Positions 4,601-16,204 of a stretch of DNA of 24,650 bases are shown here, piece by piece. A program made the translations under genes and the position numbers. The notes beneath the pieces were generated by a model. The model ran no database searches, was not told the DNA's origin, and was given only the letters and a program-made list of their open reading frames with translations. Position 1 is the stretch's first letter, and each line of letters opens with the position of its first letter. The DNA is from a virus: positions 1 to 24,650 of the IMG/VR virus record IMGVR_UViG_3300031772_000271; one strand, written 5' to 3'.

Positions 4601-7230
4601 TCTGTGTACCAGTAGGAACGCCGAGCCAATAAGCCCTTATCGTAGTATTCCTTCCACTCCTCAAGAGTGGCGGATTCCTCACCAGAAGCACTTACTCCCA
4701 TATCTTTCGGGGAGACAACATTCCCTGGCCTCGGACTGTAATGAGACAGAGCAATGGTTTGCTTCGGAGGAATGTAAAGAGTAATACCGTCTTTCAGGTC
4801 GTAAATTGCCTTTTGATTCGCACCCTCGGCCATAGCAATGGCTTGGGTCTTGTCCTTTACCGTGGCCACTATATCAAGCTCGATCTGTTTCTCGGGCTTA
4901 TTTAACCACGTCCCTACGCTATAGTCAGGGTTCTGCAATAAATCTTGGTTAGCCTGGACAAACAGGTCTAGGTCTTCCTGTGTAAGTTTAGCTCCCTTGA
5001 CAATGACGGTACGGTCAGGGAACATGCCAACACTGTAGTATGGCTTGCCAACCAGATTCCCTACCGCTGGGTTCACGGTGCTTCCGCCCCCTGTGTTGTG
5101 CAGTTTAAGAATCTTCTGGCCAAGAGTTAAGCCCGCAGGCGCGGGTGGCTCAATTTTGTCAGCTATCTTTTTCGCTTCGTCTGACATCTCGCTTCTAGGC
5201 GGAAGGGCAATTTTGTTTTCCTTGATGTACTTTCCGACATCTATTAATGCCTTGGCCGAAGCCAGGGTATTTGGCTTTGCAGAGACAATACTATCAATGG
5301 TGAGTCGCCCTTCTCTCACATGAAAAGTCCCTACTATTAAGGGTTCACCATAGGAATCAGTCCTTATAAATGCCTCGCCCTCTGCAATCCCAACCGTATG
5401 TAGAAAGTTTGGCCTGACCTCGGGAACTTCTTGTAACCAGGTCTTGCCCTGGGATAAAATATTCTGTTGAACATACCCAGGCATAGGAGAACCCATCCCT
5501 ACCGCTGCAATTCCAGTCGCACGTGCCAGGGTAGTTACTGCAGGGACAATTCCTCTAACCCCCGTAGCAAGGGGGGGGGTAGCCAATTGGTCTATAATCG
5601 CTGGCAGTGCACTCATGGCTTCTGTGGCTGCCCTGTCAGCCCCCAAGGTAAGTATCTGGGGAGTGATTGCCCCCTTCCCTACTACTTGTTCAATAGCACC
5701 CATCATCCTACTGGCACTCCACTCAGGGGAAACCTTCCTCAAGAGGGTCGCAATAATCTTGGATTGAAGGTCATCACTCAATTCAATATTGGGATGCCTT
5801 GCCATCCATGTAACCAATGATTGATTTAGCCGTTGGTCAAGGCTTGTTCGATAAGCTGCGATAAGCACTGCTTCTGTTTCAGAACTTAATTTAATACCCG
5901 TCCGCATCGCTTCCTTACGCAATGCCGTCCTAGTGGCAACCTGGTTTGCCTTAGAAAGGACACCACCAAGTATTCTGGTTGATGCTGCGTTTACAACGGC
6001 TTCATAACCAGCCATGGGCGCTAACGCAATCTGCCCTGCCCTGGCAACTACCGCCCTTGTTCCACCCTTTGCTGCGGTCGCTGCTAATTTGGCTTCTCCT
6101 GCTGTAGCACCACCAAAACCACCCGCAATCATAAGAGCGACAGACAAAGGTGTAGTCATTCCCTGCCAGATAGTTGTTCCTACCCCTGCACTATCGTAGT
6201 AAGCCTTCTTTAACTCCTCAGAAGGTTTGAGTGCTGCCCCCTTCCATAGTTGAGCTACAGTTCCCACAGGATGCAACGCTGCTACAATCTTGTTGAAGGT
6301 AGGTGGCTCGCCCACTTCTTTCCTATACAAGTCAAGGAAATTCTTTTCGGGTTGAGACAGGCCAGGTTTTTCTTTTAATGTCTCTGCCTGTACCCCTATC
6401 ATAAAAGGCAAGTCTGCCTTTTCCATAACGGACAATCCGTATTTCTTAATTAAAACTGCAGGGATGTTAGGAGGAAGCCATTGCACAATGTTCCCTACCT
6501 TTTCCCAAAACCCAGCCCCCTGCCTTGGCTGTTGTTTCATAACCTGGCCACCCTGACCCGCTGCTATGGACATTTGCATCCCTGGCATTAAGTCTTCTGG
6601 GGCTGCAGAGAAGGGTTGCCTGGGGGATTGGGCAGCCAAATCCTTTTCGGCCTGCTCTTGCCCCTGGGAAGTGCCCTGTAGGTTAAGTGCTGAGTTAATG
6701 ACACTGGCAAATCCAGGGTCTCCCCCAGTTTCCTTGGCTGTATTCGCCTTTTGCAGAATATCCAGCCAGGTCGTCTTAAGGTTGGCCTGTTGCATGGGAC
6801 TCAGATTTCCCCAACTACCGCCGTATTGTTTTATTGCCCACTGAGCCCACTCAACGGCCTCTGATTCGGCAGCTTTCTGTCGAGCGCCAGCGGTTGCAGT
6901 AACGGTCTGTTGCACCATTTCATTAGCAAAGTTGCCCGAGCGCAATTCCTCTTGAACCATGTCTGGAGTAATTGGTATCTCGGAAGCGCCGTACTTCAAT
7001 AACTGTTTGTTCATCCCGAGCAACCTATCATAAGCCTTATTATGCCGAGAAGTAATCGCCAGGTTAGCAGCATATTGGGCTTTCCGTAGCCCTTCACGTG
7101 TCTGCCGATCCTTAATTTCTTGCATCTCCTGGGCATAGACATTGGAATACTTCCGCACAGCAGCCTCGGCGTGCTGTTTGGTAAGCGCAGCAAAATCATC
7201 CAGAATATTAGTCTGTTCCCACCACTTCAT
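1612..7230 (-). CDS. Giant polyvalent virion protein with ADP-ribosyltransferase-like segment
   Basis: 1872 residues, the largest gene by far. ATG at 7230 overlaps the previous stop as ATGA. Residues 1-250 are helical and Gln/Ala-rich. Hydrophobic stretches lie at 353-380 and 1700-1712. Residues 726-815 have the 'fv..N.dll..p..svGtW...LDi.a..A.A...NQ.aiyDl' pattern common in phage polyvalent proteins. Residues 826-975 resemble the ADP-ribosyltransferase-like domain of polyvalent proteins: HYS (830-832), G-rich turn, RRSYWYT (870-876), GYDG (955-958) and a VAVF strand. Residues 1290-1750 hold NYFPIM and a TADRLTVSAIWRG...RRTQAMFEVKDLAEYYRS region typical of large polyvalent C-termini. Polyvalent proteins are thought to be packaged and injected to act on the host. 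The position between portal-side and scaffold genes fits a virion component. Catalytic activity is inferred only, and a search should decide the domain names. Confidence 0.65.
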   Translation of the reverse strand: MKWWEQTNILDDFAALTKQHAEAAVRKYSNVYAQEMQEIKDRQTREGLRKAQYAANLAITSRHNKAYDRLLGMNKQLLKYGASEIPITPDMVQEELRSGNFANEMVQQTVTATAGARQKAAESEAVEWAQWAIKQYGGSWGNLSPMQQANLKTTWLDILQKANTAKETGGDPGFASVINSALNLQGTSQGQEQAEKDLAAQSPRQPFSAAPEDLMPGMQMSIAAGQGGQVMKQQPRQGAGFWEKVGNIVQWLPPNIPAVLIKKYGLSVMEKADLPFMIGVQAETLKEKPGLSQPEKNFLDLYRKEVGEPPTFNKIVAALHPVGTVAQLWKGAALKPSEELKKAYYDSAGVGTTIWQGMTTPLSVALMIAGGFGGATAGEAKLAATAAKGGTRAVVARAGQIALAPMAGYEAVVNAASTRILGGVLSKANQVATRTALRKEAMRTGIKLSSETEAVLIAAYRTSLDQRLNQSLVTWMARHPNIELSDDLQSKIIATLLRKVSPEWSASRMMGAIEQVVGKGAITPQILTLGADRAATEAMSALPAIIDQLATPPLATGVRGIVPAVTTLARATGIAAVGMGSPMPGYVQQNILSQGKTWLQEVPEVRPNFLHTVGIAEGEAFIRTDSYGEPLIVGTFHVREGRLTIDSIVSAKPNTLASAKALIDVGKYIKENKIALPPRSEMSDEAKKIADKIEPPAPAGLTLGQKILKLHNTGGGSTVNPAVGNLVGKPYYSVGMFPDRTVIVKGAKLTQEDLDLFVQANQDLLQNPDYSVGTWLNKPEKQIELDIVATVKDKTQAIAMAEGANQKAIYDLKDGITLYIPPKQTIALSHYSPRPGNVVSPKDMGVSASGEESATLEEWKEYYDKGLLARRSYWYTDAQPVERKFAGLPAKTTTQSLRILDLSNADPELKARFNEAKRVVEQKLQKAMGKDWERFDALGIRSATEIEYATAKYMGYDGSMTQTGVAVFKDIDIAVTPTMPMDTLAQLETDMAKGATPDDIKRRLIAIVQATVPKELQGNFLKTVRVIKTKEGLVKAVARANKMSLDFINQQALTGDEATKSTLAAKIVSLQAQTKNLPLEYRQKAAAILEGFDLKYRTGGTLNKREALRAYMNMLEETDGIAPTISEEMLEMMNSTPLRDMTTGQLQTILDETTTLIHLGMLKNRLIKIQAGRRIDEAVDGLITQLGVIPKAPAVITKASLKEAKLDKSDPFESVINRTYRMERILLQVDGYDENGVFLETFYKPINAARNQELKEVYSYLEEQFRPFLKERGIDLGKILGKKEVIEPGLTLTPAEKIGVYLHSLNNDNLLHLRYGNKLSNEQIAKVVNSLTPEERALAEHMQGYYKAQGAEISKVRTLVEGRGMTVTDNYFPIMIQWGAMPEISFEKTLAREEAQRFAAQWASAGIKKSFLKERSHKAMQPVDLDAVGVFIKHLNQVSHYKAYAPVVRDLQMILNNAKFKQAFILKQGRPRYEVMDKWLKQNAESDALRVTSHADSILRHLRVNSVAAVSGFNLVMGFRQTISWFTGMAEVGELPAIKGLATYLRHPKDTKALIRQYDPQTYKRSFEREIAEEKMMRSLEAKVTDKITWREAFMFLTTTADRLTVSAIWRGAFDNYLAKNPGMEKEAGQEAARVIRRTQAMFEVKDLAEYYRSNEFMKALTMFTNELNNNWNYYRFDMAGKFGAKKIGLGTLARRTFEAFIIPALIIGWTIRSRPQKNAEEFRKDMGSQALSTLPIFGTFFGNVLQGYQSDLNLITFAGIDKALQMMAQANQGDWLAALKTSPELAGLLTGLPTIQTKRFIQGALDLSSGKSDDWMKLIWGRYTRDQYIEADQKASAGALDELSGMLYGGLFDSLDKEKQAIVLSLLQENK
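5571..5579. repeat. Nine-base G/C homopolymer inside the polyvalent gene
   Basis: Nine G on the plus strand are nine C in the coding strand. They cover codons 551-554 (Thr-Pro-Pro-Leu) of the 1872-residue gene. The frame is intact in this copy. Such a run can slip during replication or sequencing, and a one-base change would cut the protein before its ADP-ribosyltransferase-like and C-terminal parts. Confidence 0.9.
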
Positions 7231-8482: not shown

Positions 8483-8717
8483 CGTTTTTCTCCTTGAAGC
8501 GACTTAGCCAATCATTTACTTCCTTGACGCCGTGTTTCTCCATGAGAGCAATGATATCATTGGAAGATAACTGTGACGCCATGGCTAATTGCTCCTTGCG
8601 TGTGGATTCCCTGACCCCGTAAGGAGTCTCGCCCATCTTGGCCAGCTTCTCGTCTATGCTCACCATCATGTTGCTGAGCTTCTGCATGGTGAGCGTTCCG
8701 ATATTTACGTTACTCAC
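8463..8717 (-). CDS. Small hypothetical protein next to portal gene
   Basis: 84 residues from a GTG start at 8717 that overlaps the portal stop as GTGA, so it is translationally coupled to portal. The sequence is almost fully helical: MSNVNIGTLTMQKLSNMMVSIDEKLAKMG, then STRKEQLAMASQLSSNDIIALMEKHGVKEVNDWLSRFKEK. The second part looks like a small helical bundle. The ATG for the next gene lies inside its last codons. No known domain is recognised. A head-module accessory role is inferred from position only. Confidence 0.65.
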   Translation of the reverse strand: MSNVNIGTLTMQKLSNMMVSIDEKLAKMGETPYGVRESTRKEQLAMASQLSSNDIIALMEKHGVKEVNDWLSRFKEKNDGRQMV

Positions 8718-10510
8718 TGAGTTGCCCCCATTTGCTCACGGGGAGTTGGAATAGCACCCATTTCTGGTGATCCTCTACCCCTGGTTCTCAAAGCGTCCTC
8801 CATCACACCCATGCCTTCACCCGTCTGATTAGGCGGTTGGCTTCGCATACTCTGGTTTCCCCGCTTGTTTCCAAGCTCTTTTGCCATATTCTCAATCTTG
8901 GTAATTTGATCGAGTTGCTCCTGCATACCCAACCGTTTCATTGCATCCTTGGCAATAACTTCCCTGAGCAGTGGGTCTTTCATGGCCTCCTCTGCAGCTT
9001 GCTGGGCTATCTCATCCTCAGCCTGTTTCTCAGAGTAGTCGTGATAATCCAATAGTTCCGTCTTGTGACTGATAGAACCGCCTTGCCTGAGAGCCTTCCC
9101 GAGAGACTTACGAACATCGGTAGCCTCGGGTGGTTCAGCCAGTAATGTGACGGTGCAGTCATAGTATCCCTTGATATCAGCAGGCTTTACTTCCTGAAAG
9201 ACCTTCCCGTCCTCAGATGCCATATTCTTGATCTGTACTGGGAAGTCATAAACCTGTTCGATGATCCGAGAACCCATGCCCATACTAACACTCAGGGCAG
9301 TCTCCAGATTCTGAAAAGCGTCCTTATAGGTGCTCTTGGCACTAGACATTAAATCTTCCTGGAAAGACCCACTGTAAACACCAGGAACCTTAACTCCGCC
9401 CAGGACGGCGGGCGGACTGGCCATATTCTGTATCATTCCCCACTCCTGGAATAGACCCTGGGGCGGACTTTCGCCCGTAACGACCTCGATTTCCATTTGG
9501 CCTGGAATCTCTATCAGGATCACATCAGGATCGGTGGGAATCTTATTGTCAGGATAGTATTGCTTGATTAGTTCTGGATTACCCTTGAGCTTGTACTTAA
9601 GCCAGGCATAGCGAGCATTGATAACGTCAATCATGGATAGCATTCTGGATTCCATCTTGAGGATATCCTGCTTGCCGTACAGTAAAGACCTGTACTCATA
9701 CTCGGGTTTCCCTTCATAGCTGGTCTGCCCTGCGCCTGAATCAAAGTGCACATAGGGCACAAACCCAAAGATATTCGGCTGAACCTCTCCCTGCAGAACT
9801 GGGATATTATCAAGCAGGAAGCATCGCCAGAAGGCGTCATAGTAACTTACCCAGGAAACAGGCTGGGTCGGCTTCTTGTCCGTTGTCCAGTTCCAGCCGT
9901 TCTTCCTGCTTAAGGCCACTGCCTCTGCAGCAGTGATAGGAAACTTCTCAAACACGTCCGCGGGCACAAGCCCGTCATGCGCGGGAGAACAAAAGACATT
10001 GATGGGGTCAGGAGATGAGTGATATAACGGGAAATGGAATAACCGCTTCTCATTATATTCCTTCCGTTCCTCGTCCGAAAGGTTCGTAATCGGTTTACCG
10101 TTATAACTCCCGAAGTAGAGGTCATCCATATTGACCCTCAAGAAGCCCTCGCCACGAAGTAGAACCTTCTTGGCGCAGTTCTTGATGACCTTGATATCCT
10201 TGTGCATCCAGAAGTTATAGAAGGTCTCAACGACCCCCGCCTGCTTTCTGGCCTCATCACTATCCCTGCGGGGAACTACCCTCGCCATGGGATTATCAAG
10301 CGTGAAATGAGTTACGCCGACATCAATCCAATCCCGTGCCTTGGATGACTTACGGGTAGGAAACCTTGAAGGCACATTGGCATCAAAGGTAAGCTCGTAA
10401 AACTTGTCCAACTCTATCTGCAGTTCATGGAGCTTACCATAGAAGGCCTCATATGACTTGAGTCTCTCGTTTATCTCATCCAGAGTCGGTGGTGTTTTCG
10501 TCTGTTCCAT
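8714..10510 (-). CDS. Portal protein
   Basis: 598 residues, about the usual size of portal proteins. The portal is the dodecameric ring at one capsid vertex through which DNA enters and leaves. The N-terminal helix (DEINERLKSYEAFYGKLHELQIELDKFYE) is followed by the clip/wing core. ARVVPRRDSDEARKQAGVVETFYNFW and NCAKKVLLRGEGFLRVNMDDLYFG are typical portal patterns, as is the long helix KQDILKMESRMLSMIDVINARYAWLKYKL. The C-terminal part (residues 500-598) is charged and Gln-rich. The gene lies eight bases after the large terminase gene, the classic order. The call rests on pattern and context, without a search. Confidence 0.8.
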   Translation of the reverse strand: MEQTKTPPTLDEINERLKSYEAFYGKLHELQIELDKFYELTFDANVPSRFPTRKSSKARDWIDVGVTHFTLDNPMARVVPRRDSDEARKQAGVVETFYNFWMHKDIKVIKNCAKKVLLRGEGFLRVNMDDLYFGSYNGKPITNLSDEERKEYNEKRLFHFPLYHSSPDPINVFCSPAHDGLVPADVFEKFPITAAEAVALSRKNGWNWTTDKKPTQPVSWVSYYDAFWRCFLLDNIPVLQGEVQPNIFGFVPYVHFDSGAGQTSYEGKPEYEYRSLLYGKQDILKMESRMLSMIDVINARYAWLKYKLKGNPELIKQYYPDNKIPTDPDVILIEIPGQMEIEVVTGESPPQGLFQEWGMIQNMASPPAVLGGVKVPGVYSGSFQEDLMSSAKSTYKDAFQNLETALSVSMGMGSRIIEQVYDFPVQIKNMASEDGKVFQEVKPADIKGYYDCTVTLLAEPPEATDVRKSLGKALRQGGSISHKTELLDYHDYSEKQAEDEIAQQAAEEAMKDPLLREVIAKDAMKRLGMQEQLDQITKIENMAKELGNKRGNQSMRSQPPNQTGEGMGVMEDALRTRGRGSPEMGAIPTPREQMGATQ

Positions 10511-10517
10511 ATCACTC

Positions 10518-11882
10518 CTACGTCTTTATGTACGTTTGTCGTTCAGGTGTTCCGATAAACCTAGGTAGTTGGCCACGCCTGGCCTTGATAGGCAACCCAA
10601 ACTTATTCGCCAGTAAGTATATCACCGCCTTACAAGCGTGATCATTCTTCGCTAATGGTTGCCCCGTGAGTTTGTCCCTGATCCATATTCCTCCGCCTTC
10701 CACGGGTGATTTCCCTCCACCCAATTCTGATATCCACCCTCTACACTTGGGGTCTATATAGAAAGTCGGCTTTCCTGTCTCGGGATGAATCTTCAGGTGC
10801 GTTCTGAGTAGCTCGATTCCGTCCTCGATATTTACCTTCTTCGAGACAAGGCTAACCCCAGCATCAATGAGCCATGTTTCCGTAGGGGAAGCCATGCCCT
10901 GGTGCTGTGTACCTGCTATATCAATTGCCCCACCAATGACCGCATCCCACCATTCTCTTTTCTTGCAGATATAGATAATGTCCTTGGTGACATGTCCCTG
11001 TATGTAAACCTCATCTATTGCAGCGAATCCATCGCCTTGCTTCTGGATGACCTCAACGGCATAAGCGCCATGGTATCCTGGGTCAATGGCCAATTCAACG
11101 GCAGTATTCCTGTCAAACGGGCACTCCTTGACATGGTACGCATTAACAAACTCAGGTATAGTTCTGTCTGCCCTGGGACTCGGTTCTCCCCCGAATCGTT
11201 CCCTGAACCGATCCTTCGGCATTGACGCTTCAAGCTTTTGAAGCTCAGGATCATTTCGGCCTAACGGGAAGATTACCGTGTTTGACCAGGTAGGCAGGGA
11301 GAATGATCTGAGTTCAAGCAGGTTAAACCCTTGCCCGAGTTCATAGAGTTCTCGATACCAACCAACATAATCCTCCTCCTCAAATGTTCCTGCTGCAGAC
11401 AGCCAGCCCCGTTTCTCAGCCAACCGTCCCCTAGACCGCAGGAAGATTTCATAGGCAAGCTGGGCAGCCTCGCACAGAAGGATTGCATCGGGCGCTGTGG
11501 TAGCTATCTTCTCAGGGTACTTGGCTGACTTTGTGACTATCCGCGTCCCGTCTTTGAGTGCCATGAGTCCAGGGTCAATGTTCTTCGTAAGCTCCTGGAT
11601 TATCTCCAGCTTACCAAAATCAAGTGCAAGATGCTCCCATTCACCACGGCAGGCTTCGTAATCATCTCCGAGTAACCAGAATAACCCAGGTCGCTTGTTT
11701 GGGAGATTATCAACCCACCAGTGTCCTTCGAGTTCTTCTGCGTTAGTCTTCGACTTTCCAGCCCGTTCCCCGCCAGCTATGAGCTTGTTTCGGCTTGTGT
11801 CCAGGTGAATAACCAACTCGGCCTCAGTCGGTTTGTACCCTGTAAGCCTCCACAACTCTTGCAATTGATCCTGGTAAGCCAT
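10518..11882 (-). CDS. Terminase large subunit
   Basis: 454 residues. This is the ATP-driven motor and nuclease that packages DNA into proheads. Walker A is GGERAGKS (37-44). Walker B with the catalytic Glu is ILLCEA (134-139). The coupling motif is SAAGTFEEED (about 162-171). The C-terminal RNase H-like nuclease has its acidic triad at D267 (ELAIDPGYHGAYA), D321 (GGAIDIAGTQHQ) and D414 (KNDHACKAVIYLLANKFG). All key residues are present, so it should be active. The ribosome site is AGGA, eight bases before ATG. The small terminase is not adjacent but about 2.1 kb away, which is unusual. Confidence 0.92.
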   Translation of the reverse strand: MAYQDQLQELWRLTGYKPTEAELVIHLDTSRNKLIAGGERAGKSKTNAEELEGHWWVDNLPNKRPGLFWLLGDDYEACRGEWEHLALDFGKLEIIQELTKNIDPGLMALKDGTRIVTKSAKYPEKIATTAPDAILLCEAAQLAYEIFLRSRGRLAEKRGWLSAAGTFEEEDYVGWYRELYELGQGFNLLELRSFSLPTWSNTVIFPLGRNDPELQKLEASMPKDRFRERFGGEPSPRADRTIPEFVNAYHVKECPFDRNTAVELAIDPGYHGAYAVEVIQKQGDGFAAIDEVYIQGHVTKDIIYICKKREWWDAVIGGAIDIAGTQHQGMASPTETWLIDAGVSLVSKKVNIEDGIELLRTHLKIHPETGKPTFYIDPKCRGWISELGGGKSPVEGGGIWIRDKLTGQPLAKNDHACKAVIYLLANKFGLPIKARRGQLPRFIGTPERQTYIKT

Positions 11883-13356: not shown

Positions 13357-13487
13357 ATTCGCCTCGCTACAGCCTTGACCAGGCGCACCACGATCTTGAC
13401 CACGGGGCTTACGTCCACGTTCAACGTGGTCGTGATCACGGGGCTCACTGTCACTTTCGACCTTACCACAATCTTGACTTTTGCCAT
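13341..13487 (-). CDS. Possible small Val/Lys-rich protein
   Basis: 48 residues from the internal ATG at 13487 (MAKVKIVVRSKVTVSPVITT). The sequence alternates Val with Lys/Arg/Thr, suggesting beta strands, and ends basic (KIVVRLVKAVARRIWNGK). The frame opens further upstream to 13580, but that part looks non-coding and lacks a ribosome site. The site before 13487 is also weak, since GGAAG fits better with another ATG four bases earlier. It is the first possible gene after the promoter at 13622-13649. Real but uncertain. Confidence 0.35.
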   Translation of the reverse strand: MAKVKIVVRSKVTVSPVITTTLNVDVSPVVKIVVRLVKAVARRIWNGK

Positions 13488-13503
13488 TGCATTATGTAAA
13501 CTT

Positions 13504-13520
13504 CCAAATCTTCGATTTGG
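13504..13520. promoter_or_regulatory. 17-bp palindrome upstream of the small membrane gene cluster
   Basis: CCAAATC (13504-13510) and GATTTGG (13514-13520) form a perfect seven-base stem with a three-base loop. It lies in the leader between the promoter at 13622-13649 and the first possible gene. It may be an operator, a leader hairpin that controls translation, or a weak attenuator. No T-run follows on the minus strand. Confidence 0.5.
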
Positions 13521-13621
13521 TCTGGCAGGGATACCTATACTCTCCCAGTGCGCATGGCCTTGCGATTGGGCGATGGGCATGACTTATTCACGCAAGAACC
13601 TTTCTCAGACCACATAGTGTT

Positions 13622-13747: not shown

Positions 13748-13907
13748 GTGACAAAGCGTGACATCGTAGCACGAGTGAGCGTGACAAAGCGTGACAAAGC
13801 TAATAGCTTCAACCGTGACAGAATGTGACAAAGCTACTACGTTCAAACGTGACAAGTGTGACAAACCCTGTCACGCTATTGTCACACGGTTGTCACATCC
13901 CTGTCAC
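13748..13907. repeat. Iteron-like array of GTGACA / TGTCAC sites
   Basis: Eight GTGACA sites on the plus strand start at 13748, 13758, 13781, 13791, 13815, 13825, 13849 and 13858. Four inverted TGTCAC sites start at 13869, 13880, 13891 and 13902. Many direct copies are paired at 9-10 base spacing and several carry the longer form GCGTGACAAAGC. The spacing is near one helical turn, as in iterons bound by replication initiators or partition-type proteins. No open frame of normal composition fits here. Replication origin, packaging site and operator array are all possible. Confidence 0.85.
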
Positions 13908-13931
13908 GCTCTGATCCTACCAGGCAATCAC

Positions 13932-13984
13932 TCTATATAATATATATATAATAGTTACTAAGTACTAAGTACTAAGTACTGAGT
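13932..13984. repeat. AT-rich tract with ACTAAGT heptamer repeats
   Basis: The tract at 13932-13952 consists almost only of alternating T and A. It is followed by three perfect ACTAAGT heptamers (13957, 13964, 13971) and a fourth imperfect copy ACTGAGT (13978-13984). Next to the iteron-like array it has the look of a DNA unwinding element. It ends a few bases from the stop codon of the small terminase gene. Confidence 0.75.
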
Positions 13985-13989
13985 TACTA

Positions 13990-14541
13990 TCACTCTATAA
14001 TCCCTTCACTGGCCTTTAAGGTACTACGCGCGCGCCCGCGCGGAGTAACAGCCTCAGTCAGTAGCGGAGTAGTCACTACAGTGATTGATCCTTGCTTCAT
14101 TTGTGCAAGCTCCTGTGATCGTGCCCGTAACTCCTCAATAAGCTTAGATGGTGTAACCTCTATCTCCATGCGCCTACCAAAGTGGGCAGGGTCTTTACGC
14201 TCAAGCATCCAGGCAGCAGCTTGCCATGAGCCTGGTAACTTACTCTTGGCAGCAGTAACTATAATAGCTATGAGAGCACGTTCACCTTCAGCTTCAGCTT
14301 TTTTTGTTGCGAGGACGAAGTTGCCGTGAAAGGTATCCAGGCCGAGTTCAATATCGGCTTCGCCTCGCTTGACGTAGTTATAATAAGTCTTTTCATTCAT
14401 ACCACTTGCTAAGCAAGCAGTCTTTATATAATTCCCATCAGAGATACTCTTACAGAGGAGGTCGAGACGTGCGGGTGAAATTCGTCTACGCAATCCCCGC
14501 TGGTCTACTTTCCCGTTTTTCTTCTTTACACCTTTTGGCAT
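13990..14541 (-). CDS. Terminase small subunit
   Basis: 183 residues, ribosome site AAAGGA before ATG at 14541. The small terminase recognises the packaging site and regulates the large subunit. After a basic N-terminus, residues 24-58 form a helix-turn-helix (LDLLCKSISDGNYIKTACLASGMNEKTYYNYVKRG). Residues 109-124 (AAAWMLERKDPAHFGRR) carry the Trp-x-Leu-Glu-Arg...Phe/Trp-Gly-Arg-Arg pattern typical of this family. The C-terminal third is less conserved. The gene lies directly beside the iteron-like block, which could be its binding site, and is separated from the large subunit. Its 3' end holds a GC-alternating stretch (14027-14043). Confidence 0.8.
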   Translation of the reverse strand: MPKGVKKKNGKVDQRGLRRRISPARLDLLCKSISDGNYIKTACLASGMNEKTYYNYVKRGEADIELGLDTFHGNFVLATKKAEAEGERALIAIIVTAAKSKLPGSWQAAAWMLERKDPAHFGRRMEIEVTPSKLIEELRARSQELAQMKQGSITVVTTPLLTEAVTPRGRARSTLKASEGIIE

Positions 14542-15446: not shown

Positions 15447-15527
15447 GTGCAAATCAACGTAAACACGAGAAGGGCGCCCATAAGTCCTGACCCTATTAGG
15501 GCAGGCAGGGAGAAAGGAGTAAAATGA
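15447..15527 (+). CDS. 26-residue leader-like ORF
   Basis: GTG at 15447 has a perfect GGAGG nine bases upstream. The product is about MQINVNTRRAPISPDPIRAGREKGVK, basic and hydrophilic. Its stop TGA overlaps the ATG of the next gene (ATGA), which suggests translational coupling. It could be a leader peptide, or the ribosome site may only look like one because of the upstream gene's last codons. The ISP codons fall in the CATAAGTCCTGA direct repeat. Confidence 0.4.
   Translation: MQINVNTRRAPISPDPIRAGREKGVK
15479..15490. repeat. Leader direct repeat, copy 1 (CATAAGTCCTGA)
   Basis: Identical 12-base copy lies at 16193-16204. Both copies are followed by an about 30-35 base leader, with a CTAT(T/C)AG block and AAGGAG, that ends in an ATG. 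The pair flanks the Ala-repeat gene, as if the leader had been duplicated together with that gene. Confidence 0.7.
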
Positions 15528-16204
15528 AAGGATATAGGTTCGTAACAAATGCCCTCAAAAGTGAGCGCGGGGACACTCAATGGATGATTGGCAAGTGGCA
15601 GAAATGCAAGGGGAAATTATCTCTTTGTGCAAATGGTTTTCATGCCAGCCAAAAGCCGATTGATAGCCTTAGTTATATCTTCGGCACTCGTTGGTTTGAG
15701 TGTGAGGCACGAGGGCAAATCCTCAAAGGCACTGACAAATTCTGCGCCTCCGAAATGAGGATAGTCAAGGAAATCCCTAATAAGGTAATCCAGCAATTTG
15801 CTATAGATTGTGCCTGGCGGGTATTACATATATTCGAGGAGGGCTACCCAGATGATAAGCGGCCCCGACAGGCACTAGAGGCAGTAAGGGCATATCTGAA
15901 ATTCCCAACTCAAGAGAATCTAGATAAGTTAACTGCCGCTAGGGCTGCCGCTAGGGCTGCCGCTAGTGATGCCGCTTGGACTGCCGCTTGGACTGCCGCT
16001 AGGACTGCCGCTTGGGCTGCCGCTAGGGCTGCCGCTAGTGATGCCGCTTGGACTGCCGCTAGGGCTGCCGCTTGGGCTGCCGCTTGGGCTGCCGCTAGTG
16101 ATGCCGCTTGGACTGCCGCTAGGGCTGCCGAACAGAAATGGCAAAACAGACATCTACAAAATCTTATTAGGAATGAATCAGGCAATTATGCGCATAAGTC
16201 CTGA
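15524..16204 (+). CDS. DUF7666-like protein with Ala-rich tetrapeptide repeat
   Basis: 226 residues with AAAGGAG upstream. The N-terminal 80 residues (MKGYRFVTNALKSERGDTQW, KLSLCANGFHASQKPIDSL, RWFECEARGQIL) resemble the DUF7666-type phage domain. Residues 90-125 (AIDCAWRVLHIFEEGYPDDKRPRQALEAVRAYL) resemble a conserved helical motif of putative immunity-type proteins. Residues 137-203 are about 17 tetrapeptides of form xAAx with x among Ala/Arg/Trp/Ser/Asp/Thr (AARA, AASD, AAWT, and so on), likely one long amphipathic helix. The repeat is also a 12-base minisatellite. The tail is Gln/Asn-rich. Function is unknown. Repeat length probably varies among related phages. Confidence 0.65.
   Translation: MKGYRFVTNALKSERGDTQWMIGKWQKCKGKLSLCANGFHASQKPIDSLSYIFGTRWFECEARGQILKGTDKFCASEMRIVKEIPNKVIQQFAIDCAWRVLHIFEEGYPDDKRPRQALEAVRAYLKFPTQENLDKLTAARAAARAAASDAAWTAAWTAARTAAWAAARAAASDAAWTAARAAAWAAAWAAASDAAWTAARAAEQKWQNRHLQNLIRNESGNYAHKS
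15932..16130. repeat. 12-base minisatellite encoding xAAx tetrapeptides
   Basis: The unit is about RCTGCCGCTWGG, repeated some 16-17 times with limited changes (GCTAGTGAT units interrupt at intervals). It is in frame, so copy-number changes lengthen or shorten the helix by four residues without breaking the protein. Long open frames on other strands here are only side effects of the repeat. Confidence 0.85.
16193..16204. repeat. Leader direct repeat, copy 2 (CATAAGTCCTGA)
   Basis: Second exact copy of the 12-mer at 15479-15490. Here it covers the last codons and stop of the Ala-repeat gene (His-Lys-Ser-stop) and begins the leader of the next gene, which also ends in AAGGAG and ATG. Confidence 0.7.

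Follow-up and report, generated by a model that had tools for sequence, protein, structure and literature searches.

Twelve exact copies of the hexamer GTGACA were found within 160 bp (positions 13748-13907) beside the small terminase gene, terS, of a viral IMG/VR record, and arrays of the same word were found at the 3' end of terS in four related contigs. The stretch analysed here (the window) is linear, measures 24,650 bp and has its right end inside an exonuclease gene. We tentatively interpret the array as a packaging-initiation (pac/cosB-type) site, a reading that falls just short of an even chance and is favoured somewhat because the array stays by terS, other relatives carry other words there and three genomes have a separate array at a replication gene. 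The sequence-only reading had proposed a replication origin, and part of this held, since iteron-like repeats do lie by the lowest-stability DNA of the window and GTGACA arrays do occur in initiator genes of unrelated phages, but the comparative evidence fits the packaging alternative somewhat better.

The units and their order were as the sequence-only reading had described them, with eight direct copies followed by four inverted ones and a switch of orientation at 13863/13869. The direct units (13748..13863, plus strand) start at 13748, 13758, 13781, 13791, 13815, 13825, 13849 and 13858, and the inverted units (13869..13907, minus strand) at 13869, 13880, 13891 and 13902. The successive spacings are 10, 23, 10, 24, 10, 24 and 9 bp and then four times 11 bp, so that units are indeed often 9-11 bp apart, the others being 23-24 bp; the direct units form pairs 9-10 bp apart that repeat every 33-34 bp. 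The whole window contains 20 copies of GTGACA against 10.4 expected, 12 of them within the 160 bp of the array, and in shuffled windows (n = 200) no 6-mer exceeded five copies per 165 bp. When every GTGACA array in the family is taken together, the extended unit is A(G/C)CGTGACA. The inverted units have the same orientation as terS and as every unit in the four relatives. The array is non-coding and lies 83-242 bp beyond the terS stop codon; its best period is 11.0, a poorer fit to a 10.5-bp turn than the spacings of the relatives.

The assignment of the neighbouring gene as the small terminase, also made from the sequence alone, was borne out by a profile match of terS (13990..14541, minus strand) to phrog_4102 (E = 1.8e-24). 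The match of TerS to Pfam Sf6_terminase reached 20.8 bits, under the cut-off of 27, and that to the Sf6 gp1 PDB profile E = 0.007. The predicted fold has a confident N-terminal helix-turn-helix (HTH), and the top four Foldseek matches were all Sf6 gp1 (probability 0.99-1.00). Judged by sequence and predicted fold together, TerS is an Sf6 gp1-like small terminase. The leftward late block runs from terS through the array, small genes and a 117-aa gene to terL (10518..11882, minus strand; phrog_2, E = 3.2e-9) and the likely portal gene (8714-10510), assigned by its position after terL and without a family match. The rightward block contains RecT and the exonuclease gene that runs off the window end. 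A further ORF (15524-16204, plus strand) holds a 12-bp tandem repeat at 15932-16130; this repeat stretch is low-complexity, rich in Ala, Arg and Trp, and open in several frames. A search of the window for known RNA elements was negative, and a prophage search with the TerL alignment gave no host match.

Downstream of the array and before the next late gene lies a conserved non-coding block (13478..13612, minus strand), in which CCAAAT...ATTTGG is followed by TTTACATAATG. The latter stretch has loose counterparts in contigs L079, L087 and L081, and 23 bp of the block (TGCCCATCGCCCAATCGCAAGGC) are identical in L081 on the same side of terS; one might speculate that the block is a cut site or a gene leader. 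The 3' part of terS itself carries a GC-rich inverted repeat (14022-14047), a 13-mer of which, GCGCGCCCGCGCG, recurs beside the array of L047 (about 6327-6341).

The four related contigs were found in two ways. When only the GTGACA-array pattern was used for scanning, L029 and L047 came up, both of which proved to have terL, portal and terS in common with the window, and a scan by TerL alignment alone returned the same two (as L080 and L085) together with L082 and L086. The window TerL is 54-65% identical to those of the relatives, and their TerS proteins are 30-40% identical to that of the window. In all four the array starts in the last terS codons or no more than about 65 bp past the stop, and in L029 and L086 it overlaps the terS 3' end. 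The spacings are 20/10/20/10/21/10/21/10 in L047, 21/10/22/10 in L029, 10/32/32/10 in L082 and 10/10/10/37/30/20/10 in L086, where 37 is off whole turns. Most are thus near one, two or three helical turns though unit number and spacing vary, which is the expected product of protein binding on the same face of the DNA. Absence of the array from close relatives, which the sequence-only reading had named as counting against it, is therefore not what was found. A place at or next to terS that is kept in relatives, as looked for in a packaging site, is common to the window and these four. The relatives are assembled contigs, and the contig ends near terS in L029, L047 and L082 are explained equally well by assembly breaks.

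In other relatives, small ORFs near terS contain arrays built from different words: GGCGTTACA four times in L078, GGTCTAACA four times in L088/L089, GATGTTAACAAG four times in L081 and GGTATGACG three times in L024/G003. Three of these array-bearing ORFs are homologous to each other, yet their position varies, being downstream of terS in L078, one gene away from it in L088 and upstream of it in G003. ORFs of this family that carry GGTATTACA also stand beside two non-homologous TerS proteins, phrog_51 (L205) and phrog_2538 (L208); given that these two contigs have the word in common and differ in TerS, the idea that each TerS type goes tightly with one motif was rejected. Each small-ORF array is weak alone by 6-mer count. 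These arrays may be a different thing, and their equivalence to the window array is uncertain because they are not helically phased. The ORFs encode a family of small proteins whose genes repeat the codons for G[VMLI]T, spelled identically each time (L205 4001-4291, L208 3995-4276, L078 1272-1577, L091 7286-7570 and L103 4711-4995), which stands beside three unrelated TerS types and received no PHROG assignment save one weak match.

With an 8-mer test, a repeat cluster was found within 1 kb of terS in 10/10 terS-bearing contigs of the family tested, the cluster counted in G005, L029 and G011 being a different one from the array discussed here. No joint probability is given for these clusters since the contigs are related and three clusters differ from the arrays discussed. 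No array was found at terS in G005. In another phage, a non-coding TGTACAT array lies between terS and terL (L268 1753-1945), with several spacings near 10-bp multiples.

The control hexamer GAGTCA, a scrambled form that is imperfect in having TGAC in common with GTGACA, gave 20 array loci compared with 22 for GTGACA, mostly beside a gene in the terS position or within initiator-like genes, and a second control, CAGGTA, gave five loci, mostly simple repeats. A uniqueness of GTGACA was accordingly rejected, and the similar number and places of the GAGTCA loci indicate that the array geometry is a general phage style. Among 20 and 73 TerS-selected loci, mostly outside the close clade, arrays were not enriched at terS (p = 0.27 and 0.82). 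The notion that arrays as a rule lie at terS was likewise rejected, and the terS-linked array is a trait of the window's clade and of scattered other phages.

If the array is a packaging site, the HTHs of TerS would load on the GTGACA units roughly along one DNA face, with one HTH of the TerS ring per unit; the ring would bend or wrap the array DNA, a step that the AT-rich tract beside it might ease by bending or melting, and would pass the adjoining DNA on to TerL, which would make the first cut. We infer TerS binding of the array and TerL cutting nearby in this way. The geometry would suit a ring of HTHs, adjacent HTHs of small-terminase rings being about one DNA turn apart (PMC4737164). The pac site of P1 offers a precedent, with seven hexamers TGATCA/G in 161 bp inside pacA (PMC10028697), and like the window array it combines a length of about 160 bp with repeated hexamers and a place at the gene for the small terminase. 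The twelve units of the window differ in that they lack GATC (Dam) and lie downstream of terS, not inside it, so that the P1 type of pac, with GATC hexamers inside the gene, is not what is seen here. The pac of SPP1/SF6 (PMC4737164) likewise has direct repeats at terS, and its small terminase is also an HTH protein in which one HTH lies about one turn from the next, but in SPP1 the repeats amount to few boxes, placed where terS begins, and the DNA-binding domain on its own was little specific for them.

Several observations count against packaging. Which motif is present does not follow TerS type, terS enrichment is absent outside the clade, G005 lacks a terS array and the AT tract next to the array resembles an unwinding element. 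Known TerS proteins bind DNA weakly in vitro (PMC9611059).

The AT tract is a point for an iteron replication origin, in which an initiator encoded past the right end would bind GTGACA and melt the tract at 13931-13990, a reading that deserves serious weight even though we think it less likely than packaging. Directly after the array, as the sequence-only reading had it, and on its terS side, 13932-13953 is 95% AT and three copies of ACTAAGT (13957, 13964 and 13971) are followed by one ACTGAGT. In a nearest-neighbour profile 13931..13990 is the lowest-stability 60 bp of the window, and the minimum falls at the same place with 30- and 100-bp spans. This segment is possibly an unwinding or bending element, and the AT tract is a good candidate for the former. 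An array next to an AT-rich stretch is the layout of an iteron origin, and iterons flanked by an AT-rich region make up the lambda ori (PMC7466680); there, however, the iterons lie inside the initiator gene O, whereas the window array is non-coding, by terS and without an initiator in view. The flanks of the relatives' arrays are not the lowest-stability DNA of their contigs.

No replication initiator was found in the window, in agreement with the sequence-only reading for this 24,650-bp linear fragment; as the fragment ends inside the exonuclease gene, an initiator may be encoded past its right end. A Phage_rep_org_N initiator was absent in 11/11 contigs of the window's clade searched. The GC skew changes sign near 14.5 kb, and this check, which had been suggested for an origin, lent no support and was discarded as evidence because the skew tracks gene strand.

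Arrays at replication genes bear on an origin from both sides. In unrelated phages, GTGACA arrays with the same geometry are found inside initiator-type genes (L034, Phage_rep_org_N, E = 1.6e-45; L028, DnaT, E = 2.2e-18), which favours an origin. More widely, the linkers of initiator-type genes (Phage_rep_org_N, DnaT and O-like) encode short-repeat arrays of many words in the arrangement of lambda O (L028, L034, L043, L048 and L063; L006, L014 and L016; L222 and L227). Also in favour are unannotated GCGTGACA arrays in both orientations in the gap after a primase-type gene of Rhizobium phages 16-3 (L161 4300-4670) and RHph_X2_25 (L162 4295-4660), which are likely origins. These have the same octamer as the window in both orientations and are also non-coding, but they directly follow the primase-type gene and lie about 3 kb or more from terS or cos. 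A DNA similarity search of annotated phages and plasmids found this array type only in these two phages, the remaining matches being rejected as short chance matches. In the relative G005, which lacks an array at terS, an AT tract and GCGTGAA units lie directly before a helicase-like gene (L097 9880-10160), a region that on sequence is a good origin candidate.

On the other side, the array accompanies terS rather than a replication gene in five genomes, and in three near-complete genomes a replication gene has a second array, built from a different word. In G003 this word is CTACACC and the array falls in the linker of a Lin1244_N/DnaB_2 initiator; in G010 it is GTCTACA, within a DnaB-like gene; and in the less related G047 it is CTGCTAA, before a related helicase-like gene. 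If replication has an array to itself, some other protein is the more likely user of the one at terS, and the DNA-binding neighbour that is conserved there is TerS. If the window array is an origin after all, it would be unusual too, being placed among the packaging genes with no initiator visible.

Omega- and ParR-type systems likewise include arrays in which short units stand in both direct and inverted order. A regulatory or partition-type array, coated by a small cooperative DNA-binding protein for late transcription control or genome segregation, is nevertheless improbable here: the array does separate terS from the late genes that follow, and a single weak promoter-like match (13907-13878, minus strand) falls across it, but a promoter function is not general because the arrays of L029 and L086 overlap the terS 3' end, and no partition gene was recognised on looking through the window's ORFs.

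Neither repeat-bearing packaging sites nor iteron origins are new as kinds. The literature searched contained no example of an array of this many short units, spaced close to whole turns, next to an Sf6-like TerS and with different words in relatives, and a review states that neither wrapping nor threading accounts for the sequence specificity of TerS rings (PMC9611059). It is unlikely, though worth stating, that the packaging site of this family is a near-whole-turn hexamer array read by the HTH ring of TerS, with the word swapped between relatives and the place kept, as a code by which phage DNA is told from host DNA. If this were true, the HTH-ring wrapping idea would become directly testable with a natural array of near-whole-turn spacing and relatives that carry other words.
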